Source: Lachnospiraceae bacterium
GTDB lineage: Bacteria; Bacillota; Clostridia; Lachnospirales; Lachnospiraceae
DNA length: 59,945 nt
Assembly (NCBI GenBank): GCA_017540265.1
Contig: JAFYBJ010000050.1
Span: 1 to 59,945 of the forward strand
Direction of reading: 5' to 3'
Made by a program: the position numbers and the translations under genes. Below, piece after piece: positions 16,181 through 49,869 of the stretch. The notes under the pieces were generated by a model. It ran no database searches and was not told where the DNA came from. It was given only the letters and a program-made list of their open reading frames with translations. Numbering within the stretch: the first letter of the stretch is position 1; every line of letters begins with the position of its first letter.

Positions 16181-19100
16181 TCACTGAACGTTGATATCAG
16201 CAGGTGTTATCTTGAAGGTTGTATTTGCCCTTCCGCCGTAGGAACCTACGCCGCGGATCACGACCTTGGCAGTTCCCTTGTTTGTATTGTTTTCACATGA
16301 TTCAACTATGTAATCTGTTCCTGCCGTAAGAACCGCACCGTTCCTTGCAGTCACTGTGAAATCCTTCGCATCGGGAACGATAGCTTCTCCCGTATAGCTG
16401 TATGTCTTATTGCACTTTGCAGACTTAAGCTGGTTCTTGCTGTCTACCACTGTGAAGCCTCCGATCACGGAACCGGTGTACATGCCCTTCATGGTAACAG
16501 TTACCTTTACTCTTGTGCCTGCCGCAAGGCCTGCAGCCTTGATAGCATCCTTGCCCTTATACTCGGTGGTTCCGACAGTATAGGTAAAGGTAGCATCGTA
16601 ATCGTTTCCTGCCGAAAGCTCCTTGCCTCTGCTGTCCTTAAGAACACCGTCGGGTATAGTCACCTTTCCGCCGCTTATAGGAGCATCGTTTATGCTTAAG
16701 CTTACGTTGTTGTTTGCATTGCTGCAGTTCCTCTTTATGACTATGAATCTGTATACGAGGCTTCCCTTGTAATTGCCCTTGCCTGTTATAGTCATGGAAG
16801 GAAGATTTGATTCCGCGGTACCTGTGTTTGTCTCAGAGGTATTGTTCTTATAATCGCCTATCTTATAATCCCTGCCCTCTACAAGGGTAACGCCGCCGAT
16901 AGTAAGCGCAACATTAGGCTTTGCACCATCCTTGTCATAAGGAGCCATGAAATATTTTCCGCTTGCATCATAAGTACCCTCATCAAGAACAGTCACCTCT
17001 GCCAGTGCTATATCCATAGCATCGATAGTGAAGTTCACTTTTGCCTTGCTGCCCTTGTAGCCGCCCAGACCCGTAAGTGTGGCAGTAGCGATTCCGGCCT
17101 TTGCGTTGTTCTTGTATGTTACGGAATAGTCTTTTCCTTCGATAAGCTCTTTTCCTCCAAGTACGAAATTGCTGCTTGCAAGAACTGCTATGCCGCCGTT
17201 ATAGGATATGCTTCCACCTTTAACCGACACACCGGTAAGTTTTCCTATCGGGTTTATCTTAAAGGCCGCCTTCTTCTGGCCGCAATAGTTGCTGTCCGCT
17301 GTAGGAAGGATGTAAACTGTTCCCTTCTTGGGATCTACGGCATTTATGAAATCAGCTCTGAGGCCTGCCGCAGTGAAACCGTTTGCCTTATTTAAGGTTG
17401 CAACAGGAGCACCGCCCTGCATTACGGTGATGCTTATGGCATCATTAAGGCTTGCATCAACTCCGGAATAGGTTATAGGTGCTGCGGTTACTTTAAGCTT
17501 CGCAATGTTGGTACCTGCAGATACGGTAACCATGCTCTTTATGTTGCCTGTAAAGTTTCCTTCTCCCTTATAGGTAACCTGGAAGGTGCCTGTGCCGGGA
17601 AGCATTACGGAAGCGCCCTTTACATCTATGGCATTACCGGAAGCATCTGTTATCTTGTAATCCTTTCCTGCCTTAAGCTTCTTACCGTTCATCATGATAA
17701 GAGGAGCATGCTTCTTTGCTCCGGAAGCATATGCCATGTCTACGGTTTCTGCATTTGAAAGATCATAACGCGCAATTGTGAAAGGAATGATCTTTGTTCC
17801 CTTATATGCGCCCTTGCCTTTTATCACGATGTGGGGTGCCTTCATAGCCTTTGCATTTGCCGCGGTCACTCCGGTTGCATCGAAAGCATTCTTATTATTC
17901 TTGTAGGAGATAGTATAGTCTTTCTTTAAGGTAAGTCTCTCTCCTCCGAAATATACGTTTACAACAGGCTTAATAGCCTTGCCTGTATAAACAATGCTGC
18001 CCTCGTTCTCGATCGTTGCCCACATACCGCTTGTTACGGCTTTGAATATACCCGTAACTGATATGGAGGAAGTATCTACGCCTGCAGGTATAACAAAGCT
18101 TACGGTATTGTCATTTCTGCTGCTGTCGTAATCAAATGTCTGTACCACACCGTTTCCGAAGTTCACCTTTATACCGGTGAAAGTATAATTATCTTTCGGA
18201 GCCGCAGTCACGGTAACGGTGTCGCCTGCATGATAGGTTCCGTCAGCGATCTTTATGCTGCCTGAAGTGCTTCCGCCTGCAGCCACAGCCACAGGAGCAG
18301 CCTCTACAAGGGCGCTTACGAATACGTCACCTTCAGGCATCCTGAAATCTGTCTTTTCATAGGCCATCTTGTTGCCTACATTTACAGGATTTCCATCATT
18401 ATCCGATACTGACCAGCCATTAAATACGAAGCCCGGAAGCAGGTTGCAGGAGATGGTAACTACGGTACCGGGTGCTGCTGCCGCCTTATCAGCGGAAATG
18501 GTCGCACCCGCAAGGGTATCATCCACTATTACATCATATTCGAATGCGGTAACTTCCAATTTGAATTTGATCTTCGGACCGTCAGCAGTCTTTACAGTGA
18601 TATCGGTGCTGTTCTTTGCAAGTGCGTTGATGGTAACTTCCCTGAAATCAGCGTCATCACCGCTGGCATTATTGTATGAGATAGTAGCCGTTGCGGTCTG
18701 CGATGAGTTCCACACTGCGATCTTTGCAAATGTAGCATTATCGGGTGTTGTTATTGCCTTGAAATCGGCAGATGTCCCGACCATCAGCTTTACGGTATCA
18801 TTATCACTTACAGTTACTTCCTTCCCTGTCCGGGGATCGGTATATACAACGGAAAGAGCATTAACGGAAACCACATTCTTGGGCTCTTCACCATCCCAGT
18901 TGTACATCCAGTATGCATTGCAGAGATAATCATTATCTCCGTTGAACTTATTGGTTCCTTCGAGAGTTTCACGCTCAAGCGGAGTACCCTGATAATACAC
19001 GAGCATAAGCTCTTCGCAGCCGCGGAACGCGCCCTTCTTTATATCCTGTACCTTACCAAGGTATACCTTGGTAAGAGCCTTACAATTCTGGAACACGCCC

Positions 19101-21700
19101 TCATCTATCATTCCGAGAGAAGCCGGGAACTGGATCTCCGTAAGAGCAGTACATCCTGAGAAGGCATTTTTTCCTACACCGTTGAACTGTTCTCCGCCGC
19201 TTGCCACATCATAAGGGAAGTTTATCTTTGTAAGCGATGTACAATCTGAAAAAGCATTCTCACCTATACCGGTGATGGTCTTGGGTATGGTTACTGCCTT
19301 GAGGGAGCTGCAGCCCTTGAAAGCATCATTCTCAATGATCTTTATATTGCTGTTATCACCGCCAAAGTCTATACTCTCCAGAGCTTTACAATCCTTGAAC
19401 GTACTCTTGTCTATCTTTGTAAGTTTCTTATTAAGCTGCACGGATTCTATCCCGGTACATCCTTCAAAAACACCAGTATCGCCATAGCCTAAAGCTTCTA
19501 TCTTTTCAGGGATAACTACTGTTCCCTTAAGCGATGTACATTTTGCAAAAGCGCCGTCTCTGATATTTGAAACATTTGTACCGGTAAAACCATTAAACTT
19601 AGTGAGTGCGCTGCAGCCGTAAAACATATTCTTAGGAATAGCACCCACATAAGTTCCGGATATGGAATAATCGGTAAGGCTGGTGCAATCCTGACAGACA
19701 GCCTCTGCCTTGAAATCAATCTGCTCCTCGCTAACGACCTTCCATTCAACGTTTCCACTGTCATCAATGTTCAGGGAAACCTTATATATCGTTACATCTT
19801 TGGCAGATTCAAACCTTGTCTTTTCAGGAAAATCAATCCTCTTTAATGAAGAGCAGCCCTTGAAGACTCCTGTCTGGATATATATATCCTGATCATTAGG
19901 AAGAGAAACCTCCGTTATGGATTTGCAGTCTGTGAAAACATTTTCTCTAAAAAGAAAGACTTTTTCAGGTATTACAACCTTTCCGTTATTTTCAGGTCCA
20001 AAAGATACAAGCTTTTCACAGCCGTTAAAAGCATAATCAGGAAGTATCGATATATCCCATCCTGCTGTATAGCTTACCCATGTCAGATTCTTACAATTCT
20101 GACACAGGGCTCCGCCTAACATTGTAATGCTGGGAGGAAAAGCTATGGTCTTTATTCCGGAAGAATCAAAGGCATTGCCTCCGATATGCTCAAGACCGGT
20201 TCCCAGATTAATGCCTTCTAATGCCTTACAATCTTTAAAAGAACTGTTACCTATATTTGATACGGTATTCGGAAGTGTAAGCTGGCTGTTTAAACTTGTA
20301 CATCCCTGGAACGCGGAATTTCCTATAGTTTGAAGATTCCCGTTTTTCGGGAATACAAAGGTCTTAAGTCCCGTGCAGTTTTCAAACGCATTATTTCCTA
20401 TAGTGACGAGGGATGTCGCATTTCCCAGATCCATATTAGCAAAACTCTTACAGCCCTTGAAGGCGCTGTTACCTATCAGTATAACTTTATCTGTTACGGG
20501 AAGTTTTCCGTTATTTCCATTTAACATTGTGCAGTTTTCAAAGCAATTTGCTCCGAAAACCTCTACTCCCGTGCAACCTTCAAGCAGGTTCAGAGCATTA
20601 CATTCCTTAAATGCCGACTTACCTATAACAGTTACTTTTGCAGGCACACTAACCTTAACAATATTGGTTTTTTCAAAAGCAGATTCACCAATGTAAGTGA
20701 TATTTTCCGGCAGTCCCTCATAAGTTCCGTTCTTATCCAACGTGAACTTGCTGCATTCTTTAAAAGTATTGTCAGAAACCGTCTTAAGTTTTGTAAGATC
20801 TTTTACATTTGCGTAAGTAAGAGAAGAGCAGCCGCTGAATGCACCCTTGTCTATACCTATTATTCCGGAATGAAACTGGATATTGTTGAGGTTTTTACAA
20901 TCCGCAAAAGCTGACTCAGCTATATATGTGATATTTCCGGGTATCTGAAGATTGGTAAAATTCTTCCCCTTAAAAACCTGTGCGCCTATGGTTTCACAAC
21001 GTGCTTCTACAGAAACATGCCTGTCCTCACCATCCCATACATCAGGAAAAGTAATGGTCGAGTTGTCATTTATGGCATTGTACCATTTTGAATTCCCGGC
21101 TTCCGTAAAGATAGTATCGGTAGCACCCTCTATTTTTTCTACAGCCGCATACTTATAATATGTCGCAGTATCACTTCCTTTTGCTTTCACAGTAGCCAGG
21201 TAAAGCTGAAATGTGATTGACTTTTTGTTGTCGCCTGATTCTATGACAACCTCTTTCTCAGCAAGATCATCTGACTTAACATATTTTCCCTGAGCATTGT
21301 CATATTTTGCCTTGTAAAGCTTTTCGATATTTATATCGTAGCCTTCCATTTGTTTATGAAGTATAGGCAGATCCGCGTCGGCATCATCTATTACCAGATC
21401 CACAAGATTCCTTGCATCCCCGTCATAGTTCGACTCTGCCACAGGCACATCCGTTTCATTTCCGGATGCATCCGTCATTTCCTCTGAAAGCAGAGCTTTT
21501 GCCGGAGCCTCTGACTCCGTCTCCTCTTCCACAGCCTCGCCTGCATCTGCTTCCGCTGCCGCAGCCGCCTCTGTCTTTGCCTTGCCATCCTCTGCCGCCT
21601 GAGCATAAAGCACCCCGGCAGGCACGACAGACTGGACATTCATGCTTATCGTCAGCAGGAATGTCAGAGCCCTGGTCAACCATGTTCTTCTCTTAACCAT
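16181..21700 (-). CDS. BspA-like leucine-rich-repeat surface protein
   Basis: A 1839-residue secreted protein. Residues 1-35 form a signal peptide (basic RR, hydrophobic core, then AQA|AE), followed by an alanine/glutamate-rich linker. Roughly residues 220-910 hold more than twenty BspA-type LRR_5 repeats of about 23 residues (pattern IGNSAFKGCKSL...LP). Then come a BIG2-like domain, an InlB/bacterial-repeat-like domain (GATISADKAAAAPGTVVTI) and several copies of a beta module with the pattern YTGKAIKP...DY.ISYKNN...I.GKGAYKG...F.I. BspA-like LRRs bind host or bacterial surface ligands. There is no LPXTG motif, S-layer-homology domain or C-terminal helix. The start has GGAGGTAG four bases upstream and a strong promoter at 21758-21786. 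Confidence 0.9.
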   Translation of the reverse strand: MVKRRTWLTRALTFLLTISMNVQSVVPAGVLYAQAAEDGKAKTEAAAAAEADAGEAVEEETESEAPAKALLSEEMTDASGNETDVPVAESNYDGDARNLVDLVIDDADADLPILHKQMEGYDINIEKLYKAKYDNAQGKYVKSDDLAEKEVVIESGDNKKSITFQLYLATVKAKGSDTATYYKYAAVEKIEGATDTIFTEAGNSKWYNAINDNSTITFPDVWDGEDRHVSVEARCETIGAQVFKGKNFTNLQIPGNITYIAESAFADCKNLNNIQFHSGIIGIDKGAFSGCSSLTYANVKDLTKLKTVSDNTFKECSKFTLDKNGTYEGLPENITYIGESAFEKTNIVKVSVPAKVTVIGKSAFKECNALNLLEGCTGVEVFGANCFENCTMLNGNNGKLPVTDKVILIGNSAFKGCKSFANMDLGNATSLVTIGNNAFENCTGLKTFVFPKNGNLQTIGNSAFQGCTSLNSQLTLPNTVSNIGNSSFKDCKALEGINLGTGLEHIGGNAFDSSGIKTIAFPPSITMLGGALCQNCKNLTWVSYTAGWDISILPDYAFNGCEKLVSFGPENNGKVVIPEKVFLFRENVFTDCKSITEVSLPNDQDIYIQTGVFKGCSSLKRIDFPEKTRFESAKDVTIYKVSLNIDDSGNVEWKVVSEEQIDFKAEAVCQDCTSLTDYSISGTYVGAIPKNMFYGCSALTKFNGFTGTNVSNIRDGAFAKCTSLKGTVVIPEKIEALGYGDTGVFEGCTGIESVQLNKKLTKIDKSTFKDCKALESIDFGGDNSNIKIIENDAFKGCSSLKAVTIPKTITGIGENAFSDCTSLTKINFPYDVASGGEQFNGVGKNAFSGCTALTEIQFPASLGMIDEGVFQNCKALTKVYLGKVQDIKKGAFRGCEELMLVYYQGTPLERETLEGTNKFNGDNDYLCNAYWMYNWDGEEPKNVVSVNALSVVYTDPRTGKEVTVSDNDTVKLMVGTSADFKAITTPDNATFAKIAVWNSSQTATATISYNNASGDDADFREVTINALAKNSTDITVKTADGPKIKFKLEVTAFEYDVIVDDTLAGATISADKAAAAPGTVVTISCNLLPGFVFNGWSVSDNDGNPVNVGNKMAYEKTDFRMPEGDVFVSALVEAAPVAVAAGGSTSGSIKIADGTYHAGDTVTVTAAPKDNYTFTGIKVNFGNGVVQTFDYDSSRNDNTVSFVIPAGVDTSSISVTGIFKAVTSGMWATIENEGSIVYTGKAIKPVVNVYFGGERLTLKKDYTISYKNNKNAFDATGVTAANAKAMKAPHIVIKGKGAYKGTKIIPFTIARYDLSNAETVDMAYASGAKKHAPLIMMNGKKLKAGKDYKITDASGNAIDVKGASVMLPGTGTFQVTYKGEGNFTGNIKSMVTVSAGTNIAKLKVTAAPITYSGVDASLNDAISITVMQGGAPVATLNKANGFTAAGLRADFINAVDPKKGTVYILPTADSNYCGQKKAAFKINPIGKLTGVSVKGGSISYNGGIAVLASSNFVLGGKELIEGKDYSVTYKNNAKAGIATATLTGLGGYKGSKAKVNFTIDAMDIALAEVTVLDEGTYDASGKYFMAPYDKDGAKPNVALTIGGVTLVEGRDYKIGDYKNNTSETNTGTAESNLPSMTITGKGNYKGSLVYRFIVIKRNCSNANNNVSLSINDAPISGGKVTIPDGVLKDSRGKELSAGNDYDATFTYTVGTTEYKGKDAIKAAGLAAGTRVKVTVTMKGMYTGSVIGGFTVVDSKNQLKSAKCNKTYSYTGEAIVPDAKDFTVTARNGAVLTAGTDYIVESCENNTNKGTAKVVIRGVGSYGGRANTTFKITPADINVQ
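18950..21010 (-). repeat. tandem leucine-rich-repeat coding array
   Basis: Within the BspA-like gene, a unit of about 69 bases encoding the LRR_5 consensus (I..SAF.GC..L..I.LP) recurs more than twenty times, with inserts of variable length. Boundaries are approximate. Such arrays can change copy number by recombination. Confidence 0.75.
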
Positions 21701-22720: not shown

Positions 22721-24208
22721 TCAAACGTTATCCGCAAGCTTCCCCATAAGCGCCTCTGCATCACTTTCCGCCTCTGCACCGGGATCTTCATTTTCCTTTT
22801 CGGAAACAGCCGTTAAACCTCCCTCTGCTTTTTTCCCGGCATCTCCCGAAGGAGCGGTGCTCTTCTCTTCTTCATGACCTTCAAGATCTTCATAGCGCAC
22901 CATACGGTTTCTTCCATTGGTCTTTCCGAAGTAAAGCGCCTCATCCGCTTTCTTTACAATATCCTTCATATCATCCACAGTATTGCCGGAAATGATACCG
23001 AAGGTCATGGTGACTTTTATTGATCTCTCACCATATTTAATGGTCTTTGCCCTTACAGCGGCCATAAGTCCCAGCAGGGCTTCTGCCGCCTGATCTTCCG
23101 AAAGCTTGTCAAATATGAGCAGGAATTCCTCACCGCCCCAGCGTACCGCAAAGCCTTTTCCCACCATAAGCTTACGAAGCTCCAGTGACACGAAGCGAAG
23201 AACCTCATCACCCGCATCATGTCCGTATGTATCATTCACCTTCTTAAAGAAGTCTATATCACCTATGGCAACCGCAAAGGGCTGACCGGTCTTTACAGCC
23301 GCTTCACTGACATCCTTCATTCGCGCAGTACCGAAACGCCTGTTGTAAAGCTTGGTAAGAGGATCCTTCTCCACCATAACACGCAGGGTATCCCTCATCT
23401 TTACCACACCCTCGGCAGCTTCCCCTATCTCATCACGCCTCTTTGCCGCACGGTCTCCCATCTCGGCATCAAGCCTTCCTTCAGTGACAATACCGAGAAA
23501 CTTTCTTATTTCCTTTATGGAGAGTACAACCCCCCTGGTATATCTTATACTTATAAGGGATGCAAAAAGTATGGTAAGGATAGTCACAAGAACTATGGGG
23601 CTGATCTGTTTTTTAATCGCCTGCTCCACCTCACCGGTTCTTTCACCGGTGCCTATCATACCTGCAAGACTCCCATCAGAATTAACAAGCGGCACGTAAC
23701 AGACATGATAGCTTTCATTATTTATATCCGCCACATAAAACAGAGGTTCCATGCTTTTCTCCATCGCGGACATTATAGCACCGTTTACGCCGGTGGCTAC
23801 GCTTCTGGTACCGTTTTCATCCGTAATGGTGGTAAGTATCCTTGCATCCCTGTAAAAAAGCGTAACCTCCATGCCTGTATCCGCTTTTATCCTGTCTACT
23901 CCCGTAAAATCTCCGGTAAGTTCCTTTTCTCCCTTGTAAAGCGATACTGTCTTATCTCCAACCAACACATAATCACCGGGATAAAGACTGTCATAAACCG
24001 ATCTTGTGAGCTCCGCAGCAGCCTTAAGCGAACGGTTCACTTCCGTTTCCACCACGTTCCTGTAATTTCCGGACGCAACGATAGCAATGATCACGCCCAT
24101 GGCCAGCATCGGCAATACGGTAGATACCAGTATGGCCCTCTGAAGCCTTCCTATTTTGTTTTTTTTCATATCATTTCCTATATTATTTTTTTCCGTCTTA
24201 TCTTTCAT
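22721..24208 (-). CDS. membrane diguanylate cyclase (Cache-HAMP-GGDEF)
   Basis: A 495-residue sensor enzyme expected to make cyclic di-GMP. Membrane helices at about 25-46 and 203-220 flank an extracytoplasmic Cache-like domain (DTGMEVTLFYRDARILTTI and PLVNSDGSLAGMIGTGE). A HAMP linker follows, then GGDEF at about 280-440 with KDPLTKLYNRR, DIDFFKKVNDTYGHDAGD and the active-site GGEEF at 358-362. The inhibitory I-site RxxD expected at 349-352 is VGKG, so product feedback should be lost. The C-terminal 55 residues are acidic and disordered. The start overlaps the ClpX-like gene upstream by four bases, so it belongs to that operon. Confidence 0.92.
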   Translation of the reverse strand: MKDKTEKNNIGNDMKKNKIGRLQRAILVSTVLPMLAMGVIIAIVASGNYRNVVETEVNRSLKAAAELTRSVYDSLYPGDYVLVGDKTVSLYKGEKELTGDFTGVDRIKADTGMEVTLFYRDARILTTITDENGTRSVATGVNGAIMSAMEKSMEPLFYVADINNESYHVCYVPLVNSDGSLAGMIGTGERTGEVEQAIKKQISPIVLVTILTILFASLISIRYTRGVVLSIKEIRKFLGIVTEGRLDAEMGDRAAKRRDEIGEAAEGVVKMRDTLRVMVEKDPLTKLYNRRFGTARMKDVSEAAVKTGQPFAVAIGDIDFFKKVNDTYGHDAGDEVLRFVSLELRKLMVGKGFAVRWGGEEFLLIFDKLSEDQAAEALLGLMAAVRAKTIKYGERSIKVTMTFGIISGNTVDDMKDIVKKADEALYFGKTNGRNRMVRYEDLEGHEEEKSTAPSGDAGKKAEGGLTAVSEKENEDPGAEAESDAEALMGKLADNV

Positions 24209-25785
24209 AGATACTCCGGTTTTGTGAGGCCTTTTGCGGTCTCACCGCTTATCCTTACCTTTTCCGTATTCTTTCTTGAAGGAGCTTCAAATAAAGCTTC
24301 TTCAAGAATCTCATGTATGACATAATTAAGCCCTCTTGCCCCTATGTTCATATCCATCACCCTGTCAACCGCCTCATCTATGGCCTCGGATGTGAAATCA
24401 AGCTCTATGCCGTCATCTTCCTTAAATTCATTTATATAACGGGAAAGCACGCTGTCCTCAGCTTCCGTGAGAACCTTCCTTAATGCTTCCCTGTCCAGCT
24501 TCTTAAGCACGGCCACGGAGGACAGGCGGCCTGCCAGTTCTGCCTTCATTCCGTAACTCATCAAATGCTTTTCCGTGAGATCTTCTCCCCTTAGTACAAA
24601 ATCACCGGTCTTTTTTACGCTGTTTCCGAAGCCTATCCCTGTATTTTCTATATCCTTCTCAACTATGTCATCAAGCCCCTCGAAAGCGCCGGCACAGACA
24701 AAGAGGATATTTTCCGTATCCATCTGAACCGTCTCGCTGCTGCCGCTTTCCTTAACGGGGACATCCAGCACTGTTCCCTCAAACATGCCAAGAAGCTGTC
24801 CCTGCAGTTCGTCATTTATATCTCCGCCCCTTGAATACTTCTTTGAAGGGATTATCTTATCAAATTCATCACAGAATACTATCCCCCATTCAGCAAGCTC
24901 CTTATCCTTATCAGCCTTAAGATAAAGGGATGTAAGTGCCTCTTCCTTATTACGGCCTTTCCACGGAGTGGCCACTATCCCGCTGAAATCGGTTACGGAT
25001 ACGGGTACATCAACTATGTTCCTGATACGTCTTATAAGCTCTGTCTTCCCGCAGCCAGTGGGACCTATAAGCAGCACATTTGATTTTATGAGACCTGCAC
25101 CCGGATCGGACATGCGCAGATAATGATTATATACTGCTGATGCCAAAAGCTTCTTGCTTTCATCCTGACCTATTATAAAACGGTCAAGATAGGCCTTTAT
25201 CCCTGCCGGTGTGTATTTTTCAAGGAATCTTCCCGCCATTGCCTGTGTCTTTGACTTTTCGGGCTTATTGTTTTTCTTTATTTTTTTACGGATGCCGGAA
25301 TCAGCAGCTGACCTGTATTTTACACGGCATACCCGCATAAATCCCAAAAGCCTGTTCCGCTTTGCTTCATCGCTTATCTTTTCAAGCTCACAGGCAGCAA
25401 AATCAAAGCATCCGTCAATATCATTATTTGTCACCCTTCGTTCAAGCGCCGGAGTTGCCGCAAAAAACTCATCCTCGGGGAAAAGGCTGAAAGATTCCCT
25501 GATTATATTCCAGAACGGTGCCTTGTAACCCTTTTCCTTGTACGCCGCTCCCAAAAGCTTAAATACGCTTTCGGTATTACGATCTATCTCAGGACGTCTT
25601 TTTACGAGATAATAAACGATCAGTGTAAAAACCAGTGCCGTTACATTTCCATCAACGGAAGCTCCGGTTTTCTTCTGATATTCCTCTATAGCCGCCAGAA
25701 AAAGATCATATACCTCATCAGGTACCTGAATATCAAACGCCTTTTCAAATATGATCCTGTTTTTACAGTCGGATATCCGGCTCAT
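24205..25785 (-). CDS. ClpX-like AAA+ ATPase, copy 2 (IGF loop kept, no zinc finger)
   Basis: A 526-residue relative of ClpX. Residues 1-185 are a novel helical domain in place of the ClpX zinc-binding domain. The AAA+ core has Walker A GPTGCGKT (241-248), Walker B GIVFCDEFDK (301-310), and a sensor-2 GARG motif. The loop with IGFGNSVK (384-391) matches the ClpP-docking IGF loop. The pore-1 loop, GYVG in ClpX, is PWKG (274-277), keeping an aromatic but adding a lysine. This suggests a ClpP-partnering unfoldase with altered substrate grip, by inference. Its start overlaps the upstream paralogue by 23 bases. Confidence 0.85.
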   Translation of the reverse strand: MSRISDCKNRIIFEKAFDIQVPDEVYDLFLAAIEEYQKKTGASVDGNVTALVFTLIVYYLVKRRPEIDRNTESVFKLLGAAYKEKGYKAPFWNIIRESFSLFPEDEFFAATPALERRVTNNDIDGCFDFAACELEKISDEAKRNRLLGFMRVCRVKYRSAADSGIRKKIKKNNKPEKSKTQAMAGRFLEKYTPAGIKAYLDRFIIGQDESKKLLASAVYNHYLRMSDPGAGLIKSNVLLIGPTGCGKTELIRRIRNIVDVPVSVTDFSGIVATPWKGRNKEEALTSLYLKADKDKELAEWGIVFCDEFDKIIPSKKYSRGGDINDELQGQLLGMFEGTVLDVPVKESGSSETVQMDTENILFVCAGAFEGLDDIVEKDIENTGIGFGNSVKKTGDFVLRGEDLTEKHLMSYGMKAELAGRLSSVAVLKKLDREALRKVLTEAEDSVLSRYINEFKEDDGIELDFTSEAIDEAVDRVMDMNIGARGLNYVIHEILEEALFEAPSRKNTEKVRISGETAKGLTKPEYL

Positions 25786-27268
25786 CTTCCGTAAACTCCC
25801 TTATAACTTCTGAAAGAGGCTCTGAATGATCATCAAAAATATATTCCGCGGCCTTTCCCTCCGTGACGCATTCGCTGTCAATAAGGATCTTCTTTACACC
25901 CTTCATCCCGGGCGCATCATAAAGCACCGGCCGCATGAGCCTGTCAAGTATCCCGCGCAAAGCACGTGCTCCCGTATCGGATGAAAAAGCCCTCTCTGCT
26001 ATCGCATCATAGGCAGCATCCGTAAATACAAGCTCTGCGCCGCATGATCTCTCCACTTCCCTTGCATATCTCTCCGGCATACTGTCAGAGGCATCCTTAA
26101 GTATCCCTGTAAGCTCAGCCTTACCAAGCTTTTCAAGTACCGCGATGGCACTTACTCTCCCGGCAAGCTCTCTCTTCATCCCGTATTCCATGAGTACATC
26201 ATGATTAATATTTGCTCTTACAAAAGAAGCGTCCATATCCTTTTCAAGAACGCCGTTAAAACCGAAACGTCCGATATTTTTTTCTTTGGTCCTTTTATCA
26301 TTTCGAATGAATTCATCAAGCCCCTGAAAAGCGCCTGCCAGAACAAAAAGGATCCTGGAGGTATTCATCACAAGCGACTGCCCGTCTGTCTTTAATTCTA
26401 TGTCACTTCCCTCAAGCATGGTAAGAAGCTGGCTCTGCACATCATCGTGCACATTTACACCTCTCTCGGATATGGCAGGAAGCATGAGCTTGTCGAACTC
26501 ATCCATAAAAACTATGCCCCGCTCCGCCTTCCTTAAATCCTTGCCGGCAGCAAGGTAAAGATCCATGAGTATATCTTCCTTATGCCTGCCCCTGTACTGT
26601 CCTGCACCCAGATTTGATACATCGGTGCAGAGGATGGGCCATTCTGTTATTTTTGATATCCGCCGCATCATCTCTGTTTTCCCGCAGCCGGAAGGGCCTA
26701 TGAGCAGAACAACATCCGGCGCAAAATTCACATCGAGATGCCTTACCCTTTTGCCGTGGCCATATACCGCGCTTGATATTGCGATCTTTGCATCATCCTG
26801 ACCTACTATGTATTCATCCAGATACGCCTTTATTTCCGCGGGAGTGCGCCTGTCTTCGCGCTCCTCCCTAACCTCGTTCCTTAAATATCTGTTCCTTAAA
26901 TACTCTATATGGCCAAGGATCTGGCACTCTCTTTCATTTGAACTCCTGTTTAATGCAGCCTTAAGGGTATCCGACTCAAGTATGGAAAGCACACGATCTG
27001 CCCTTGCACCGAAGATACCCGTAGAATATGCAAGATCATCATCCATCTTATCCAGGATATCATTCAGGCTCCTGTCTTCCTTATCAATATCCGGGGATTC
27101 ACACACCCTGTAAAAAAGCATCTCAAGGTAGCTTATCTCATCCTCCCAGTCGGATGCATCTCCTTCGCAGGCTAAAAGAACGTGTTCTGTTATATATTCA
27201 GACACGTATGTACCGATCTTTGCGGGGTCATCCCCCCAATATCTCATTGCCTTGAAAATATTGATCAT
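25763..27268 (-). CDS. ClpX-like AAA+ ATPase, copy 1 (altered IGF and pore loops)
   Basis: A 501-residue ClpX relative without the zinc-binding domain; residues 1-140 are an unrelated acidic helical domain. The core begins at EIKAYLDEYIVGQDDAK, with Walker A GPSGCGKT (191-198), Walker B GIVFMDEFDK (251-260) and a GARAL sensor-2 motif. The pore loop is QYRG (224-227) instead of GYVG. The ClpP-docking loop reads IGRFGF (332-337), so ClpP contact is uncertain. The start ATG lies eight bases below a -10 box with no Shine-Dalgarno sequence. It heads an operon with copy 2 and the diguanylate cyclase. Confidence 0.85.
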   Translation of the reverse strand: MINIFKAMRYWGDDPAKIGTYVSEYITEHVLLACEGDASDWEDEISYLEMLFYRVCESPDIDKEDRSLNDILDKMDDDLAYSTGIFGARADRVLSILESDTLKAALNRSSNERECQILGHIEYLRNRYLRNEVREEREDRRTPAEIKAYLDEYIVGQDDAKIAISSAVYGHGKRVRHLDVNFAPDVVLLIGPSGCGKTEMMRRISKITEWPILCTDVSNLGAGQYRGRHKEDILMDLYLAAGKDLRKAERGIVFMDEFDKLMLPAISERGVNVHDDVQSQLLTMLEGSDIELKTDGQSLVMNTSRILFVLAGAFQGLDEFIRNDKRTKEKNIGRFGFNGVLEKDMDASFVRANINHDVLMEYGMKRELAGRVSAIAVLEKLGKAELTGILKDASDSMPERYAREVERSCGAELVFTDAAYDAIAERAFSSDTGARALRGILDRLMRPVLYDAPGMKGVKKILIDSECVTEGKAAEYIFDDHSEPLSEVIREFTEDEPDIRL

Positions 27269-27276
27269 ACACGGCT

Positions 27277-27305
27277 ATTTTACTCTCTTAAGGGCGGGCT
27301 TGCAA
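27277..27305 (-). promoter_or_regulatory. sigma-A promoter of the ClpX-like pair
   Basis: Minus-strand TTGCAA (27300-27305), 17-base spacer, TAAAAT (27277-27282). The -10 ends eight bases before the ATG at 27268, which predicts a leader of only one or two bases. Confidence 0.72.
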
Positions 27306-27324: not shown

Positions 27325-27360
27325 AACATAAAAAACCGGGCAGAAAAGTCCCGCCCGGTC
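27325..27360 (-). terminator. rho-independent terminator of the repeat surface protein gene
   Basis: Minus-strand stem ACCGGGC (27353-27359) pairs with GCCCGGT (27335-27341) around an 11-base loop, followed by TTTTT. It lies about ten bases after the stop at 27371. Confidence 0.85.
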
Positions 27361-27370
27361 ATTTTTCATA

Positions 27371-30300
27371 TCATCTTGCCTCTACCTTATTTGCAAGAAC
27401 TGTCACAAAGCTTCTTCCGGCGACCTCCACCTCAAGAGGTCTGTTCCTGTAACGCCATACAAAGGGCTTCGGAAACACGAGCTCCACCCTTCCGGCACCG
27501 CAAAGATCTAACAGTTTTTTGCCTATCTCCACGTGAAGCCTGCCGCGTTTTCCCGTAACCGCAACTTTTCCCACTTCCTTTCTTTTTCCTTCCGGGCTTA
27601 CGCTGCATACTCCTGCCATGGCAAAGAGATAAACAAACAGAGCCTGCAGGGCATATATAAGGCCCGCGGAAACAGCACCTATACCGCCTACAGCAGCCGC
27701 AGTCCTTACTGCCTTTCCTCCTGAAATTCCGTTTCCTCTTCCGCTGTTATCTCCTCCGTTTCTGGAATCTCCGTTATCCGGTGACGAGAGCAGCTTTATG
27801 TTATCTGTTTGTGTTTCTTCCGGATCTACGATCCGGCCTTCATCCTGCTCATCCGAAGAAACGCTCTTAGTTTTTTTGCCATTTACCGATACACTGTTTT
27901 TACTGATTGGATCATCTGTATCATCCGTGGTTTTCTTTTCTGACCCGTCTATGCCTTTCTTATTTTTATTACCTTTTACGGTTATATTTCCGGATACCGC
28001 ATCCCCCGAAGGAAAAGGCAGCATATCCGCTGAGAGAGAAGCCACAGGCACCGGTATAGGAACAGGCGCGGGAGTTATTCCAATTTCATTACCGTTCCCT
28101 GTCTTATCACCCCTGTCGTCGTCCTTATCCGAATTGCTGCTTCCACCTCCGGAAGAGCTTTTCTTCTTTTTCTTTTTATTATCTGAGGTCCCCGCATCCC
28201 CCGACTCAGATGCCGGTGTGGGAGTTGTTTTTGGAGTAACTTCCACTGAAGGCACGGGATCCTTTGGTATGTTATTTGATGAAGCACCGCTTTTTTCCCC
28301 GTCTCCTTCCGGTACAGGTGTGGAAGTCACCTGTTTCTTTTTAATGACAGGCTCCAGTACCGTTCCATCAGGGATATCCCATTTCCATGTATCACTTGCA
28401 GGCTCACCGTCCTCATCAAAGATGATCTCGCCGTCAATCTTATATCCGCCAAACTCTTCATCATCTCCGACATCAGGCACCGGCAGATGAATATCATCAT
28501 AGGGTTCGTCAAAAGTAACCGTATAACTCTCCCCGTCACATTCTATTTTATATTTTTTAGCCTCAAGCTCAGGCTCAAGCTCATAGCCGTCCGGAATATC
28601 CCATTTCCATTTACCGGAAACGGCACGGCCGTCTTCATCATATACACTATCCCCGCTTATGCTGTATCCCTTAAAAATATATCCCTTTTTTTCGTAATCC
28701 GGCTCTATATCCTGATACGGCTGATCATAAGTCACTTCCTCTTCCTTTGATCCGCATCGTATCCTGTAATCCTTAGGCTCAAAGCAGGCTATCATCTCCG
28801 CACCGTCTTCCGTATCAAACAGCCACTTTTCTATTACAGCTTTTCCGTTTCCGTCATATATCTTTTCGCCTTCAAATTCAAATCCGTCAAAAAGGTATCC
28901 CGTAAATCCCGGGGCAGGAGAAACATCCGGCAGTTTTTCGCCGAAGGTCATCACATATTCGTCATCTCCGTAATATATCCTGTATTTCTTCGGTTCAAAA
29001 ACTTCATCAAGGCTTACACTGTCTTCGGTATCCCACTTCCAAAGCTCTTCCGCAGGATTTCCCTTGGCATCAAATATAATATTCCCCGAAAGGGAATAAG
29101 CTTTAAAAATATATCCTGTCTTTTTTTCCGGTATCTTTACGGCACCGTAAGGAGAATCAAAGGTCACCTCATATTCATTCCCGGAACAGTTTATCCTGTA
29201 TTTCTTAGCCGTATACTCCGGATACAAAGTAGTCCTTTGCTTAAGATCCTTTGTCCATGTTTTGAATGCCGCTGCACCTTCACTATCAAAGATCTTCTCT
29301 TCACCCAGATAATAACCGTCAAAGAGATAGCCTGTGGGAGGCTTGTTTATCTTTACTTTTTCTTCAAAAGGTGCGTCATAGGTTACGGTGTAGATCTTTC
29401 CCGCGCAGTTAAGTTCATAGGTCTTGGGAGAATAATCTGCAGACAGTGAAAGCTTCCTTTCCTCCGTGCATGGTATATCCCAGATCCATTTTTCACTTAC
29501 GGCTTTTCCCCTTTCATCAAAAATATGGTTTTCCGAAAGCGTGTAGCCTTTAAAGATATAGCCTGTCTTTTCCATGCCGGATACATCTCCGTCATCATAG
29601 GCTGCATCATAGATCACCTCAGCCACGATATCGCCTTCTCCGTCTTCATCTTTATCGGGACCGTATGCTATCGTAAAATGCTTCGCTTCCCAGACCGCAT
29701 CAAGCCTTATCTCTGATTCTTCAGCATTCGGATCGCACCCTTCGGCAGGCTCACCCTTCTCATCAAACCACAGCTCCCCTTCATGGGCATAACCTGCGAA
29801 ATCATAGCCTGTCTTTACCGGGATATCCTGTTTTTCAGGCATTTTCCCATACTCATATTCTTTTTCGTACAGAAGCTCCCCGTCGGAGTAAAAACTCAGT
29901 TTAAGCGGCAGCGATATGTCTGTATAATAAACATGCTGTGTCGTTTGTTTATTGGTCACCCTGTCAACATAGGTGAACAGGAGATGATATTTTTTTCTTT
30001 GTGTGACCTTAAAAGACAAAGGCGCAGGCTGCGAGGTGCTCCCCTCCCATCTTAAAAAGGTATCAGTCATACAGTCATAAAGCCCCGGAGTGGCTTTCCA
30101 TGATGCACTAAGATATATACCGTCATTTTTAATGAGACGCTCAATTTTTATCGTGCCGAAATTCCTGTATCCGCAGGTGGCGACATTAGCATAAAAGGAT
30201 TGATGCTTTGGAGATGTGCTTTTGTCGATATGTCCGGGCAGATATTTTTCGCTGCCGTGAAGAGCCCCCAGAGTGGTTGTTTCCACTTTTTTATCCGAAT

Positions 30301-30592
30301 CCCAGTTGCTGCACCAGTGCACCGGATTGCCGTCTTCATCATATCCGTTATTCCATGTACCGCCGCAGCTTACTTCTCTGTAGCTGTAGCAGCACGTATC
30401 ATGATCATGCACTATTGCTGTACTTATGCTGTCCGGAGACTGGACAAGCCCTGCCGTACTGCCGGATGACACATTATCATCCGCAGAGGCTCTTACGCAA
30501 AAGGAAGATATGAGCATTATGGCGGTAACGCACGATATCAATCCTCTTGCAGCCCTCTTTATCAAAGATGGCTTTAAATAAAGTTTTTTCAT
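27371..30592 (-). CDS. repeat surface protein with C-terminal membrane helix and cytoplasmic tail
   Basis: A 1073-residue protein. The ATG at 30592 is preferred because AGGAGG lies eight bases upstream; a longer frame to 30619 has no such site. The signal peptide spans about residues 1-37 (ending ASA|DD). Seven tandem units of about 70-80 residues follow, with the pattern K.Y.I.C....Y.VTFD.PY...TGYIFKGYSLSG..IFDE.G.A...W.WD, related to InlB/Listeria-Bacteroides repeats. Next is a long threonine-, proline-, serine- and aspartate-rich region, then one membrane helix (about residues 978-1000) and a basic cytoplasmic domain of about 70 residues. There is no LPXTG motif. It sits between clpX and the ClpX-like pair. 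Confidence 0.85.
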   Translation of the reverse strand: MKKLYLKPSLIKRAARGLISCVTAIMLISSFCVRASADDNVSSGSTAGLVQSPDSISTAIVHDHDTCCYSYREVSCGGTWNNGYDEDGNPVHWCSNWDSDKKVETTTLGALHGSEKYLPGHIDKSTSPKHQSFYANVATCGYRNFGTIKIERLIKNDGIYLSASWKATPGLYDCMTDTFLRWEGSTSQPAPLSFKVTQRKKYHLLFTYVDRVTNKQTTQHVYYTDISLPLKLSFYSDGELLYEKEYEYGKMPEKQDIPVKTGYDFAGYAHEGELWFDEKGEPAEGCDPNAEESEIRLDAVWEAKHFTIAYGPDKDEDGEGDIVAEVIYDAAYDDGDVSGMEKTGYIFKGYTLSENHIFDERGKAVSEKWIWDIPCTEERKLSLSADYSPKTYELNCAGKIYTVTYDAPFEEKVKINKPPTGYLFDGYYLGEEKIFDSEGAAAFKTWTKDLKQRTTLYPEYTAKKYRINCSGNEYEVTFDSPYGAVKIPEKKTGYIFKAYSLSGNIIFDAKGNPAEELWKWDTEDSVSLDEVFEPKKYRIYYGDDEYVMTFGEKLPDVSPAPGFTGYLFDGFEFEGEKIYDGNGKAVIEKWLFDTEDGAEMIACFEPKDYRIRCGSKEEEVTYDQPYQDIEPDYEKKGYIFKGYSISGDSVYDEDGRAVSGKWKWDIPDGYELEPELEAKKYKIECDGESYTVTFDEPYDDIHLPVPDVGDDEEFGGYKIDGEIIFDEDGEPASDTWKWDIPDGTVLEPVIKKKQVTSTPVPEGDGEKSGASSNNIPKDPVPSVEVTPKTTPTPASESGDAGTSDNKKKKKKSSSGGGSSNSDKDDDRGDKTGNGNEIGITPAPVPIPVPVASLSADMLPFPSGDAVSGNITVKGNKNKKGIDGSEKKTTDDTDDPISKNSVSVNGKKTKSVSSDEQDEGRIVDPEETQTDNIKLLSSPDNGDSRNGGDNSGRGNGISGGKAVRTAAAVGGIGAVSAGLIYALQALFVYLFAMAGVCSVSPEGKRKEVGKVAVTGKRGRLHVEIGKKLLDLCGAGRVELVFPKPFVWRYRNRPLEVEVAGRSFVTVLANKVEAR
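28320..30000 (-). repeat. seven tandem units of 210-240 bases in the surface protein gene
   Basis: The repeats encode a beta-rich module recognisable by TGYIFKGY and KWKWD. They are diverged in sequence, so recent expansion by slippage is unlikely. Ends are approximate. Confidence 0.75.
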
Positions 30593-30613
30593 GGATCTTT
30601 CCTCCTTTTTCCG

Positions 30614-30653
30614 AAGCATCCCGCTTCTTAAAAAGGGAGGCTGCCGAACGGCA
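30614..30653 (-). other. two small hairpins in the surface-protein leader
   Basis: Between the promoter and the ribosome site the leader can fold TGCC-GTTC-GGCA (30642-30653) and AAGC-GGGAT-GCTT (30614-30626). I do not match them to a known riboswitch class. They may only stabilise the leader. Confidence 0.3.
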
Positions 30654-30721: not shown

Positions 30722-32236
30722 TCATCCATTTGTACGGTTTTCGATAAGCGGACCGCCTTTTTTGTTTATATAATCCTCCGTTACCGTTACCTTTCCGATA
30801 TTATCGTCCTTTGGTATCTCATACATGATATCGAGCATATATTCGTCTATAACTGCTCTAAGCGCCCTTGCACCCGTCTCTTTCTTAAGTGCCTTTGCCG
30901 CTATAGCCTTTAAGGCACCTTCGGTAAACTCAAGTTTGACCTCATCAAGCTCAAGCAGTTTCTGGTACTGCCTTACTATCGCATTCTTAGGTTCCATTAA
31001 GACTTTTGCCAGCATTTCCTCATCAAGCCCTTCAAGAGAAACCAACATGGGCAGACGCCCCACAAATTCCGGTATCATGCCGAATTTCCTTATATCCTCT
31101 GTCTCGGCCTTCTCAAATATCTTTCTGTCCTTCTTTCCTTTTTCCCTTATCTCTCCGGTAAAGCCCATTGCCGTGTTCTTAAGGAGCCTTTCGTTTATTA
31201 TCTCTTCAAGCCCCGGAAAGGCGCCGCCGCAGATAAAGAGTATATTCCTGGTATTTATCACGGTTGTGGGGACCATTGCATTCTTCGAAGACGAACCCAC
31301 GGGAACTTCTACCTCCGCCCCTTCCAGGAGCTTTAGCATACCCTGCTGAACAGATTCACCGTTCACATCCCTTGAATGTACATCTCTCTTCCTTGCTATC
31401 TTATCTATCTCGTCAATATAGATTATGCCCTGCTCTGCCCTGTCCGCATCATTGCCTGCGGCAGTTAAAAGCTTGCTCACTACGCTTTCTATATCATCAC
31501 CTATATATCCTGCCTCGGTAAGAGATGTGGCATCGGTGATCGCAAGCGGCACATCAAGGATCTTCGCAAGAGTGCGTACCAGATATGTCTTACCTGAACC
31601 TGTAGGCCCCAGCATGAGCATGTTGGATTTTTCTATCTCTATGTCATCGCCCTTCATATTTACGGCTACACGTTTGTAGTGGTTGTACACAGCCACGCTC
31701 ATGGCCCTCTTTGCCTTTTCCTGACCGACCACATATTCATCGAGCATTGCTTTTATCTTATGAGGAGCAGGAATATCCTCAAGTGCGATAAGCGGTTTTG
31801 CCTCACCTTCCTTTGCCCTCTTTACCTTTGAACCGCCGCCAAAGGGCATACCGAAGGGAAGGTCGGCGAGATTCATGAAGCTTATGCGGGGCCCCTGTTT
31901 CTTCTTGTCATCCTTCTTTTCCTCTGCTCCATCTTCCTTCGTATCCGGCTCTGTATTTTCCGCAGGCTTTTCCTCTTCCTGCATAGCCGGAGCAACAGCC
32001 ATACCGCTCATCTGCATGAGTTTCGAAATATCAATGGCTCCGCCGGAATTATCCGTCCCGGGCATCTGGCTCATCCTCTCCTCAAGCTGGCTGCTCATCC
32101 TGTCCATACAATCCGGACATATATTCATACCTAAAGGCATCTTCATTATGCGGCCCGCCTCGCTCTCGGGCCTGCCGCAAAGTGAACAATGCTTCTCTTC
32201 CGTATTATTATCATTCATATTATTTATATTATCCAA
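30722..32236 (-). CDS. clpX: ATP-dependent protease unfoldase subunit ClpX
   Basis: ClpX unfolds tagged proteins and feeds them to ClpP. A zinc-binding domain (CSLC...CPDC) is followed by an unusually long, acidic and methionine/lysine-rich linker of about 100 residues. The AAA+ core has GPTGSGKT, pore loop GYIG, Walker B GIIYIDEIDK and the sensor-2 GARAL motif. The ClpP-docking loop is MGF rather than IGF. Start: the open frame reaches 32290, but a promoter -10 box lies at 32289-32294, so that start cannot be used. The TTG at 32236 has GGAGG seven bases upstream and is preferred; the ATG at 32242 is only one base from the same site. About 504 residues, versus roughly 420 usual. Confidence 0.93.
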   Translation of the reverse strand: MDNINNMNDNNTEEKHCSLCGRPESEAGRIMKMPLGMNICPDCMDRMSSQLEERMSQMPGTDNSGGAIDISKLMQMSGMAVAPAMQEEEKPAENTEPDTKEDGAEEKKDDKKKQGPRISFMNLADLPFGMPFGGGSKVKRAKEGEAKPLIALEDIPAPHKIKAMLDEYVVGQEKAKRAMSVAVYNHYKRVAVNMKGDDIEIEKSNMLMLGPTGSGKTYLVRTLAKILDVPLAITDATSLTEAGYIGDDIESVVSKLLTAAGNDADRAEQGIIYIDEIDKIARKRDVHSRDVNGESVQQGMLKLLEGAEVEVPVGSSSKNAMVPTTVINTRNILFICGGAFPGLEEIINERLLKNTAMGFTGEIREKGKKDRKIFEKAETEDIRKFGMIPEFVGRLPMLVSLEGLDEEMLAKVLMEPKNAIVRQYQKLLELDEVKLEFTEGALKAIAAKALKKETGARALRAVIDEYMLDIMYEIPKDDNIGKVTVTEDYINKKGGPLIENRTNG

Positions 32237-32288
32237 AACCATACCTCCGCAAAAAGAGACCCCTGATGTGATCTCACATGTCAGATTC

Positions 32289-32318
32289 ATTATAGTTTAT
32301 GAATCAACGTATTGTAAA
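32289..32318 (-). promoter_or_regulatory. sigma-A promoter of clpX
   Basis: Minus-strand TTTACA (32313-32318), 18-base spacer, TATAAT (32289-32294). It fixes transcription start near 32282 and rules out the longest clpX reading frame. No CtsR-type or CIRCE inverted repeat was noticed around it. Confidence 0.75.
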
Positions 32319-32684: not shown

Positions 32685-34319
32685 TTATCCTTCCGTGACA
32701 CCCTTATCTCCCAGGGTCACCTTAAAGAGTAACTCCCTGTAGCTTCCGTCATCCTGCTGCCTTTTTATCTTCAGCTGGACCGTGGTACCTGCACTGTAAT
32801 AACTTAATTCTTTTTGAAGTTCTTCCATGGAATCCACGGACTCACCCTCGATCTCGGTAATGAAATCGCCCTTTTCTATACCTGAAACATCAGCCGGTGA
32901 AGATCCGTTTACGGCTGCCACATATACGCCCTTTGGCAATCCGTAATACTGTACCTCTGCTGCAGTGACCGTTGCTCCGGATATACCAAGATATCCTCTG
33001 TCCTCTTCCGGCACTTCCTTCTTGGTCGTACGGCTCATAAGATTCTCTATGATAGGCTTTGCATATGATATGGGAATTGCATATCCCATTCCTTCAACGG
33101 TATTTCCGCCTATCTTGTTCGAGTTTATACCTATCACCTCACCGTTTATGTTAAGAAGCGCACCGCCCGAATTTCCCGGATTGATAGCTGCATCTGTCTG
33201 TATGAATTTTCCGTTTACTGCTGTTCCCGTAGCGGAATTATCCATGCTGAGTTCCCTGTCGAGGGCGCTTATAACACCTGTTGTTACGGACAGTCCGTAC
33301 CCCAGGGCATTTCCTATTGCTATAGCCGGCTCCCCTATCTTTAACTGATCGGAATCACCGATCTTTGCTATGGTTATCTCATCCAGTGTTTCTTCAGAAA
33401 GATCTGATTTCTTTACAGCTATGACAGCCAGATCCATCTCTTCATTCATGCCCTTTACAAGCGCTTCAGCCGAGCTGTCATCTATAAAGGTAACTAAAAG
33501 ATCGTCATTATTCTCTATAACATGGTAGTTAGTTACGATAACCAGCTCATTATCATTTTCACCTATTATGATGCCTGAACCGCTTGACTGCCCTTTTTCC
33601 GCAAAATAATAATAATTGACAGTCATATTATTGGTTATCTTCACCGCAGAAGGTATAACATCCGCAACCATGGCGCTCACATCGGATACCACTGTATTTG
33701 TCGTCCCCGTTATAAGTCCGTTGTTTGCCGCGCTGCCGGTAGTGGAAGACGAAGCCGTTTCTGTGCTTTCCTCCTTTTCCTTAGAAGGGTTCTTTGAAGG
33801 CTTTTCCGGCCTGTCTTCTTTGGAAGTCGCAGATGACGCGGAATAAGAAGGTTCAAACCACCCCTGTTCTATTCCGGCCTGTCTTAATCCCATAAAACCA
33901 CCTGCTGCTGCCAGGCCAAATACAAGCCCCAGCGCACATGCAGAAACTGCCTTTTTAAAGAATCCCGGGCCCTTGTTCTGCCCTGCAGCTTTCTTATCCT
34001 TTTTATTCGTCTTTGCACCTGCCGTGGCGGCAGTTTTTGCGCCCATATTTCCGGCTGTATTGGCTGAACCCGCCTGTGAACCATAGCTTCCCTGATTATA
34101 GGTATAATTCTGATGATATGTATTATAACTTGGGCCAGGCTGCCTGTAGCCTAATCCGTTTCCATATGAGCCGCTTCCTGTGCCTGCAGATGTCCCTGCC
34201 GCACCGGGTCCCGACGTATTTCCATAATAGGAGCCCGCTGCATTGCCGCTCCCATAAGTATTTAAACCTGACACTCCCTGTCCGTTTCCCGTATTTGTTC
34301 TGTTCTCTTCTTCGTACAT
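32685..34319 (-). CDS. HtrA/DegP-type trypsin-like serine protease with PDZ domain
   Basis: A 544-residue membrane-anchored protease for damaged extracytoplasmic proteins. The N-terminal 95 residues are glycine-, serine-, tyrosine- and asparagine-rich and of low complexity, followed by a lysine-rich stretch and one membrane helix (about 123-146), then a disordered linker. The trypsin-like domain has the triad H266 (TNYHVIEN), D296 (EEMDLAVI) and S384 (NPGNSGGAL). A single PDZ domain fills about 450-540. The start at 34319 is chosen because AAAGGAG lies nine bases upstream; the frame could extend to 34370 but lacks a ribosome site there. It lies beside the glycan locus but has its own terminator. 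Confidence 0.92.
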   Translation of the reverse strand: MYEEENRTNTGNGQGVSGLNTYGSGNAAGSYYGNTSGPGAAGTSAGTGSGSYGNGLGYRQPGPSYNTYHQNYTYNQGSYGSQAGSANTAGNMGAKTAATAGAKTNKKDKKAAGQNKGPGFFKKAVSACALGLVFGLAAAGGFMGLRQAGIEQGWFEPSYSASSATSKEDRPEKPSKNPSKEKEESTETASSSTTGSAANNGLITGTTNTVVSDVSAMVADVIPSAVKITNNMTVNYYYFAEKGQSSGSGIIIGENDNELVIVTNYHVIENNDDLLVTFIDDSSAEALVKGMNEEMDLAVIAVKKSDLSEETLDEITIAKIGDSDQLKIGEPAIAIGNALGYGLSVTTGVISALDRELSMDNSATGTAVNGKFIQTDAAINPGNSGGALLNINGEVIGINSNKIGGNTVEGMGYAIPISYAKPIIENLMSRTTKKEVPEEDRGYLGISGATVTAAEVQYYGLPKGVYVAAVNGSSPADVSGIEKGDFITEIEGESVDSMEELQKELSYYSAGTTVQLKIKRQQDDGSYRELLFKVTLGDKGVTEG

Positions 34320-34404
34320 ATGAACTTTCTCCTTTCCGGAAAGCCTCATACTTTCCTGTCTGCAATACATATTCTAAACACGTATTGTGACGGAATTGTG
34401 TTTT

Positions 34405-36760: not shown

Positions 36761-36775
36761 GACGCTTACGTTATT

Positions 36776-37783: not shown

Positions 37784-37784
37784 T

Positions 37785-39098: not shown

Positions 39099-39106
39099 TT
39101 TTTCTT

Positions 39107-39142
39107 AAAAAGCCGGGTCACCCTTTTAAGGCTTCCCGGCTC
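39107..39142 (-). terminator. rho-independent terminator after phosphoglucomutase
   Basis: Minus-strand stem AGCCGGG (39135-39141) pairs with CCCGGCT (39111-39117), then TTTT. The 17-base loop makes it weaker than others in the window, so some read-through into the next glycosyltransferase is plausible. Confidence 0.65.
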
Positions 39143-39160
39143 TTATTCCTTCTTTTAAGA

Positions 39161-40891: not shown

Positions 40892-40941
40892 AAGCTGATA
40901 CTCCTCTCTTTTTGTATGTGTCAGAACAACACAGCACACTA

Positions 40942-40947
40942 ATTATA
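40942..40947 (-). promoter_or_regulatory. extended -10 promoter of phosphoglucomutase
   Basis: Minus-strand TGA-TATAAT, about 50 bases before the start at 40891; the -35 is poorly matched. Confidence 0.55.
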
Positions 40948-40962
40948 TCACATTTTGAACAC

Positions 40963-42930: not shown

Positions 42931-42949
42931 CTGCTTTAATATCTTCCTT

Positions 42950-48501: not shown

Positions 48502-48502
48502 A

Positions 48503-49854: not shown

Positions 49855-49869
49855 AATAATAAATCCTCC

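Follow-up and report, generated by a model that had tools for sequence, protein, structure and literature searches.

A tandem pair of ClpX-like AAA+ proteins with replaced N-terminal parts and altered pore loops, conserved beside a diguanylate cyclase gene in a genus of Lachnospiraceae

A 59,945-nucleotide stretch from a Lachnospiraceae bacterium (contig JAFYBJ010000050.1 of assembly GCA_017540265.1; the whole of it is referred to here as the window) carries two adjacent genes for ClpX-type AAA+ proteins, named X1 and X2, that are kept together in 31/35 genomes of one genus of this family. We propose, with a probability of about one half (0.5), that they are two diverged subunits of a single ClpX-derived unfoldase, which would form a mixed ring, work with the housekeeping ClpP and be linked to cyclic di-GMP (c-di-GMP). 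Both genes lie on the minus strand, with X2 (501 residues, positions 25763–27268) upstream of X1 (526 residues, 24205–25785), and their open reading frames (ORFs) overlap by 23 bp, as the initial annotation had described. The start assigned to X1 is uncertain, as that of its orthologs lies about 12 residues further in. The assignment of the two ORFs was based on family searches, orthologs and motifs, supplemented for X2 by a profile search against the PDB. The Pfam families AAA_2 and ClpB_D2-small were found above cut-off in both proteins. The top NCBIfam model was in both cases ClpX (PRK05342), matched over the core only, with 278.7 bits for X1 and 238.1 bits for X2, which falls short of the equivalog cut-off of 359 bits. 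The next family was HslU, a related AAA+ unfoldase, at 120.3 bits for X1 and 130.1 bits for X2; no HslV-type gene was found among the window proteins scanned. Similarly, the PDB chains best matched by the X2 profile were those of ClpX (3.7e-65), followed by HslU (best 1.3e-41). Judged by similarity, X1 and X2 are likely a ClpX-derived unfoldase pair, with ClpX as the closest known family.

Motifs were read in an ortholog set of 29 X1, 30 X2 and, for comparison, 17 proteins of the X3 type, a second zinc-finger ClpX (ClpX2) whose gene is a neighbour of the pair; the set excludes the unfetched pairs of five genomes and the split X1 of one more (G256). Walker A fits G[PL][TS]G[SC]GK[TS], with small variations, in 59/59 X1 and X2 rows, and the Walker B end DE[FV]DK, the arginine finger GR and the sensor-2 GAR are each present in all 59, which bears out the earlier description of ClpX-type cores with intact Walker A, Walker B and sensor 2. 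With ClpX the two proteins thus share the large and small AAA+ domains, these ATPase motifs and a hydrophobic-Gly-Phe docking site, whereas they differ from it at the sites that handle substrate, in addition to scoring below the NCBIfam cut-off. The ClpX pore loop GYVG was found in none of the 29 X1 and 30 X2 rows. Instead, pore loop 1 of X1, PWKG in the window, reads PWKG in 23 rows, PWRG in 4 and QWKG in 2 ([PQ]W[KR]G in 29/29), and that of X2, QYRG in the window, reads QYRG in 15 rows and QFRG in 13 (Q[YF]RG in 28/30). The two X2 exceptions are divergent copies from second loci, with neither QYRG/QFRG nor GYVG, so that the positive charge pointed out in the window's loops proved to be conserved across orthologs except in these copies. 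The RKH loop is missing from the X1 and X2 rows, and the pore-2 loop is also altered relative to ClpX. Loss of the zinc domain, likewise proposed from the window alone, holds throughout: a C4 motif occurs within the first 200 residues of 0/29 X1 and 0/30 X2, compared to 16/17 X3 rows, the remaining one (L145) being truncated N-terminally by the fetched stretch.

In a published ClpXP structure, the substrate is touched by two residues of pore loop 1, Tyr153 and Val154, as well as by the RKH loops, which are described as unique to ClpX-family enzymes (PMC7112951). Mapped on these contacts, X1 and X2 keep an aromatic residue at the Tyr position and place Lys or Arg at the Val position, in proteins lacking RKH. 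The aromatic residue is missing in one second-locus X2, and the Lys/Arg in both. Katanin-type AAA+ proteins also pair an aromatic residue with Arg in the pore loop and act on acidic tails, which serves here as an analogy only. Four close ortholog pairs of each protein gave ratios of nonsynonymous to synonymous substitution (dN/dS) of 0.042–0.071 for X1 and 0.036–0.056 for X2 (0.06 for the single X3 pair calculated), and both genes are therefore under purifying selection. Since the pore loops are conserved and dN/dS stays within 0.036–0.071 in all eight comparisons, the features of X1 and X2 are not a product of chance.

At the IGF site, through which ClpX docks to ClpP, a hydrophobic-Gly-Phe tripeptide is retained in 55/59 rows: 26/29 for X1, with QGF, GSF and DSF as exceptions, and 29/30 for X2, as [IMF]GF, the remaining row being IGY. 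The initial annotation had correctly read IGF in X1, but the IGRFGF of X2, which it took for a deviation, places FGF at this very site. Its suggestion that only one subunit is ClpP-competent is not supported by these counts, as both subunits keep the loop in nearly all rows.

Regarding distribution, 35 genomes of the genus, many of them incomplete, were searched with X1, and the resulting table of presence and adjacency was read manually. X1 and X2 are both present in the same 31/35 genomes, with no genome carrying one alone, and are adjacent at 33/33 loci, including a second, divergent X2–X1 pair in each of two genomes (G257 and G261). The absence of the pair from four of the 35 indicates that it is not essential to the genus. 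Co-occurrence, adjacency, descent as one clade (see below) and purifying selection together strongly support X1 and X2 as a functional unit. Three loci show particular arrangements. One second pair (L138, 6103–10477) directly adjoins a tyrosine-integrase gene, so that the pair may at times be mobile; the other (L137, 740–6087) is followed in X1's own reading frame, past a single stop codon, by a 757-residue ORF that matches nothing in Pfam; and the X1 of G256 is split over two frames (L156, 8105–9663), by either a frameshift or a draft-assembly error.

Beyond the genus, X2 was matched in 248 of 250 genomes of the family, at full length only in the window's genome and in one other (G004) among the matches listed; the remaining matches cover the core only, as those of ordinary ClpX do. 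Profiles of the N-terminal parts gave strong matches in these same two genomes only, over 397 family genomes, 392 order genomes (X1) and 391 class genomes (X2), samples that have genomes in common and include the genus only sparsely. Among the best 80 of 260 X2 relatives in a collection of 84,980 species, six were near full length, with 54–57% identity, all from metagenome-assembled genomes of Lachnospiraceae, and no full-length ortholog of X1 or X2 was found outside this family in the wider samples searched. Searches for phage, plasmid, viral and defence relatives returned no specific match for the pair: phage and plasmid records match X2 over less than 80% of its length and at no more than 39% identity among the matches listed, no viral relative of the X1 N-terminal part was found, and the best match in PADLOC, to DolB, is confined to part of an AAA region (3.9e-13 for residues 139–261 of X2, 2.7e-8 for X1).

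The N-terminal parts, approximately residues 1–190 of X1 and 1–140 of X2, have no convincing family in Pfam or PHROG, nor any Pfam match confined to them at E 0.01, and homology between the two is not significant (hhalign P 0.18 and 0.07). Three candidates were treated as noise, namely DUF4240 for X1 (best E 0.002, in 4/8 N-terminal parts), Ribosomal_S7e for X2 (best E 0.0066, in 5/8) and a topoisomerase III match in the PDB at 0.012. The X1 profile matched 10/397 family genomes at E 0.01, a threshold at which about 4 chance matches are expected over that number. Two of the ten are X1 itself, and the other eight all fall on a single stretch of coupling proteins of PF02534, with 1e-5 as the best per-genome E; these eight are not independent, because the proteins are homologous to each other. 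Comparison by hhalign gave a probability of 62% over just 64 residues against these eight, and 55% over just 36 residues against 37 coupling proteins (from 38 collected loci, one without a usable ORF), with P around 1e-4 in each case. The N-terminal part of X2 had no coupling-protein match in the same comparison. The matched stretch is presumably the all-alpha domain, and a resemblance of X1 to this domain of type IV coupling proteins is kept as a lead that we do not accept at present.

In a tree of 73 core sequences, X1 and X2 form one clade with a support of 100 in the Shimodaira–Hasegawa-like approximate likelihood ratio test (SH-aLRT), inside which X2 groups with its second-locus copies (97) and the primary X1 sequences group together (94), with the second-locus X1 copies beside them in a placement that is not resolved. 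A tree of 39 rows separates X1 (97) from X2 (99). Both trees were quick and contain long branches. X1 and X2 share common descent. As for their position relative to ClpX, the branch separating all ClpX from the pair has a support of 43, and approximately unbiased (AU) tests on the 39-row tree gave p 0.33 for a grouping with ClpX2 and p 0.23 for one with canonical ClpX. By these values, an origin from X3 or from canonical ClpX is neither favoured nor rejected. Descent of the pair from within ClpX is likely on grounds of similarity rather than of the tree.

Directly downstream of X1, and overlapping it by 4 bp, is a gene whose Pfam matches identify it as an sCache-GGDEF diguanylate cyclase with an intact GGEEF (22721–24208, minus strand). 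The cyclase gene occupies this position at 26/26 primary loci (the window and 25/25 other genomes fetched), a count outside which stand the primary loci of G255, G264, G274, G276 and G281. GGEEF is intact in 39/39 distinct cyclase ORFs from 43 loci, some of them cut by locus ends or coming from the same genome, and RxxD at the I-site position was found in 0/39. On the other side of the pair, a hairpin followed by a T run (27334–27360, minus strand), which resembles an intrinsic terminator by consensus match only, lies between X2 and the gene upstream; the search found one such element compared to 0.5 expected in shuffled sequence. Two weak sigma-70-like promoter candidates (27264–27305, minus strand) with 9/12 consensus matches each are located at the start of X2, in a region where five such sites were detected on both strands against 1.2 expected. 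The hairpin would fit a separate X2–X1–cyclase transcript.

Studies of ClpX generally treat it as a homohexameric ring. From the pairing, the kept ATPase motifs, the lost substrate-entry features and the purifying selection, we infer that X1 and X2 probably assemble instead as a mixed ring with dedicated recognition of its substrate, probably working with ordinary ClpP, linked to the cyclase and reserved for a pathway of a single group of Lachnospiraceae. A client would enter through the N-terminal domains of X1 and X2, in place of the zinc domain and RKH loop of ClpX, would be threaded by pore loops that pair an aromatic with a basic residue (Trp with Lys/Arg in X1, Tyr/Phe with Arg in X2), and would then be passed to the housekeeping ClpP through the retained hydrophobic-Gly-Phe loops. 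Since an sCache diguanylate cyclase is co-encoded, the machine is likely to have a membrane/c-di-GMP pathway as its target or as its regulator. In its complete form the proposal is put forward more tentatively: X1 and X2 would be an obligate heteromer, each with a recognition domain and an aromatic-plus-basic pore loop of its own, that delivers to the housekeeping ClpP and is coupled to a c-di-GMP sensor in the membrane.

Several observations weigh against this proposal. The pair is missing from G251, G252, G253 and G277, which are 99, 77, 67 and 94% complete, and many of the genomes are incomplete. The two divergent second-locus pairs have no cyclase gene directly downstream of X1. As QGF and GSF belong to the X1 copies of these same pairs, and DSF to one primary X1 (L154), use of ClpP may not be universal. 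With GYVG and RKH gone, part of the substrate path of ClpX is not conserved. Moreover, adjacency of the genes would fit a mixed ring and two separate rings alike.

The ClpP question leads to the alternative that survives best, although we consider it rather unlikely: the pair could be an ATPase that remodels its targets independently of ClpP, with signalling or membrane complexes as examples of such targets. A ClpP-family match is present in 35/35 genomes of the genus, and exactly one was found in each of nine pair-bearing genomes. In the genome of the window (73% complete), the only match is the clpP beside the housekeeping clpX, on another contig (C53) next to an upstream ORF taken to be tig, which leaves the pair without a ClpP of its own there. 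A solitary ClpP, together with loss of the IGF-site loop in 3/29 X1 rows, agrees with a ClpP-independent role, whereas retention of the loop in 55/59 rows would be difficult to account for if the pair docked to neither ClpP nor a comparable partner. Somewhat less probable is that each protein forms a homohexamer of its own, with its own clients, and that both are needed together. In favour of this, each protein has the complete set of ATPase motifs and an N-terminal part of its own, with no significant similarity to that of the other; however, none of the 35 genomes has one gene alone, and even the divergent second copies are paired.

A clearly improbable alternative gives X1 and X2 a regulatory role, as subunits that join X3 or the housekeeping ClpX in mixed assemblies and retune it. 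The gene for X3 (30722–32290, minus strand) had been overlooked by the initial annotation, whose tandem ClpX-like pair is otherwise real. X3 has a C4 zinc finger, a GYIG pore loop, SKNAM where ClpX has RKH, and an NCBIfam ClpX score of 535.6 bits, above the cut-off; a description of the function of this type was not found. It is in the neighbourhood of the pair at many of the loci read, which would agree with a regulatory role, but several genomes place it over 10 kb away from the pair, and X3-type ClpX is found in genomes of the family that have no X1/X2. In a selected sample of the best X2-scoring loci of the family outside the genus, 26/28 were nearer to X3 than to the housekeeping ClpX, and 234/250 sampled family genomes have at least two ClpX-like matches (counted manually, with types unsorted). 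Finally, it is very improbable that the pair is mobile or defence cargo, as the integrase beside the L138 pair and the partial DolB match could suggest, given the recurrent gene order at primary loci, the lack of a viral relative of the X1 N-terminal part and the poor coverage and identity of the X2 matches in phage and plasmid records.

Between X3 and X2 the window encodes an acidic repeat protein of 1082 residues (27371–30619, minus strand), which often, though not always, accompanies the pair. Inspection by eye suggests a signal sequence and a transmembrane helix, and the C-terminal 80 residues or so are a conserved basic tail, with an isoelectric point of 10.3, that was aligned over 11 loci. 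A profile of this tail gave one match each in 27/35 genus genomes, mostly near X2 or X3; these genomes include 26/31 with the pair and 1/4 without it, and 25 of the 26 matches are on the contig of the pair (the other in G270). This surface protein is ruled out as an obligatory partner, since pair-bearing G256, G257, G269, G272 and G275 have no tail match and G251, which lacks the pair, has one. Next to X3 is a gene for an HtrA-type trypsin/PDZ protease (32685–34370), and HtrA occurs no more than 1.5 kb from 8/26 X3-type loci in other genomes of the family. Elsewhere, the window contains a RelA/SpoT homolog (6028–8355), a DUF5716 protein (10325–11575), a protein of 1839 residues that combines leucine-rich repeats of the BspA type with a repeat of the InlB type (16181–21700), and a long glycan gene cluster (34405–53070) with glycosyltransferases, Wzt-type ATP-binding cassette (ABC) export and dTDP-sugar genes.

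Our searches of the literature on ClpX paralogs, heteromers, pore loops, c-di-GMP and Lachnospiraceae found no tandem pair with two replaced N-terminal domains. Myxococcus xanthus ClpX3 is described as an extra ClpX copy with its own role, lacking the N-terminal domain and the RKH motif (PMC11423568); it is an isolated single gene from which the N-terminal domain is absent, in contrast to a tandem pair in which these domains are replaced. Pex1/Pex6 and the proteasomal ATPases are heterohexamers and so provide a precedent for several gene products making up one AAA+ ring, but they are eukaryotic and outside ClpX, and a mixed ring of X1 and X2 is a proposal from gene pairing. A c-di-GMP input into ClpX proteolysis has its precedent in Caulobacter, where ClpXP works with PopA, an adaptor that binds c-di-GMP (PMC8973945). 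That system employs canonical ClpX and separate adaptors, whereas X1 and X2 are connected with c-di-GMP through gene linkage to a cyclase.

What is kept across one genus is a pair with basic pore loops and different N-terminal domains. If the proposed unfoldase is real, this natural pair would show how a protein-threading motor splits into specialised subunits, and the roles of GYVG and RKH could be tested against a natural replacement. It would also mean that an anaerobic gut lineage has, beside a c-di-GMP enzyme, a dedicated branch for proteolysis or remodelling.

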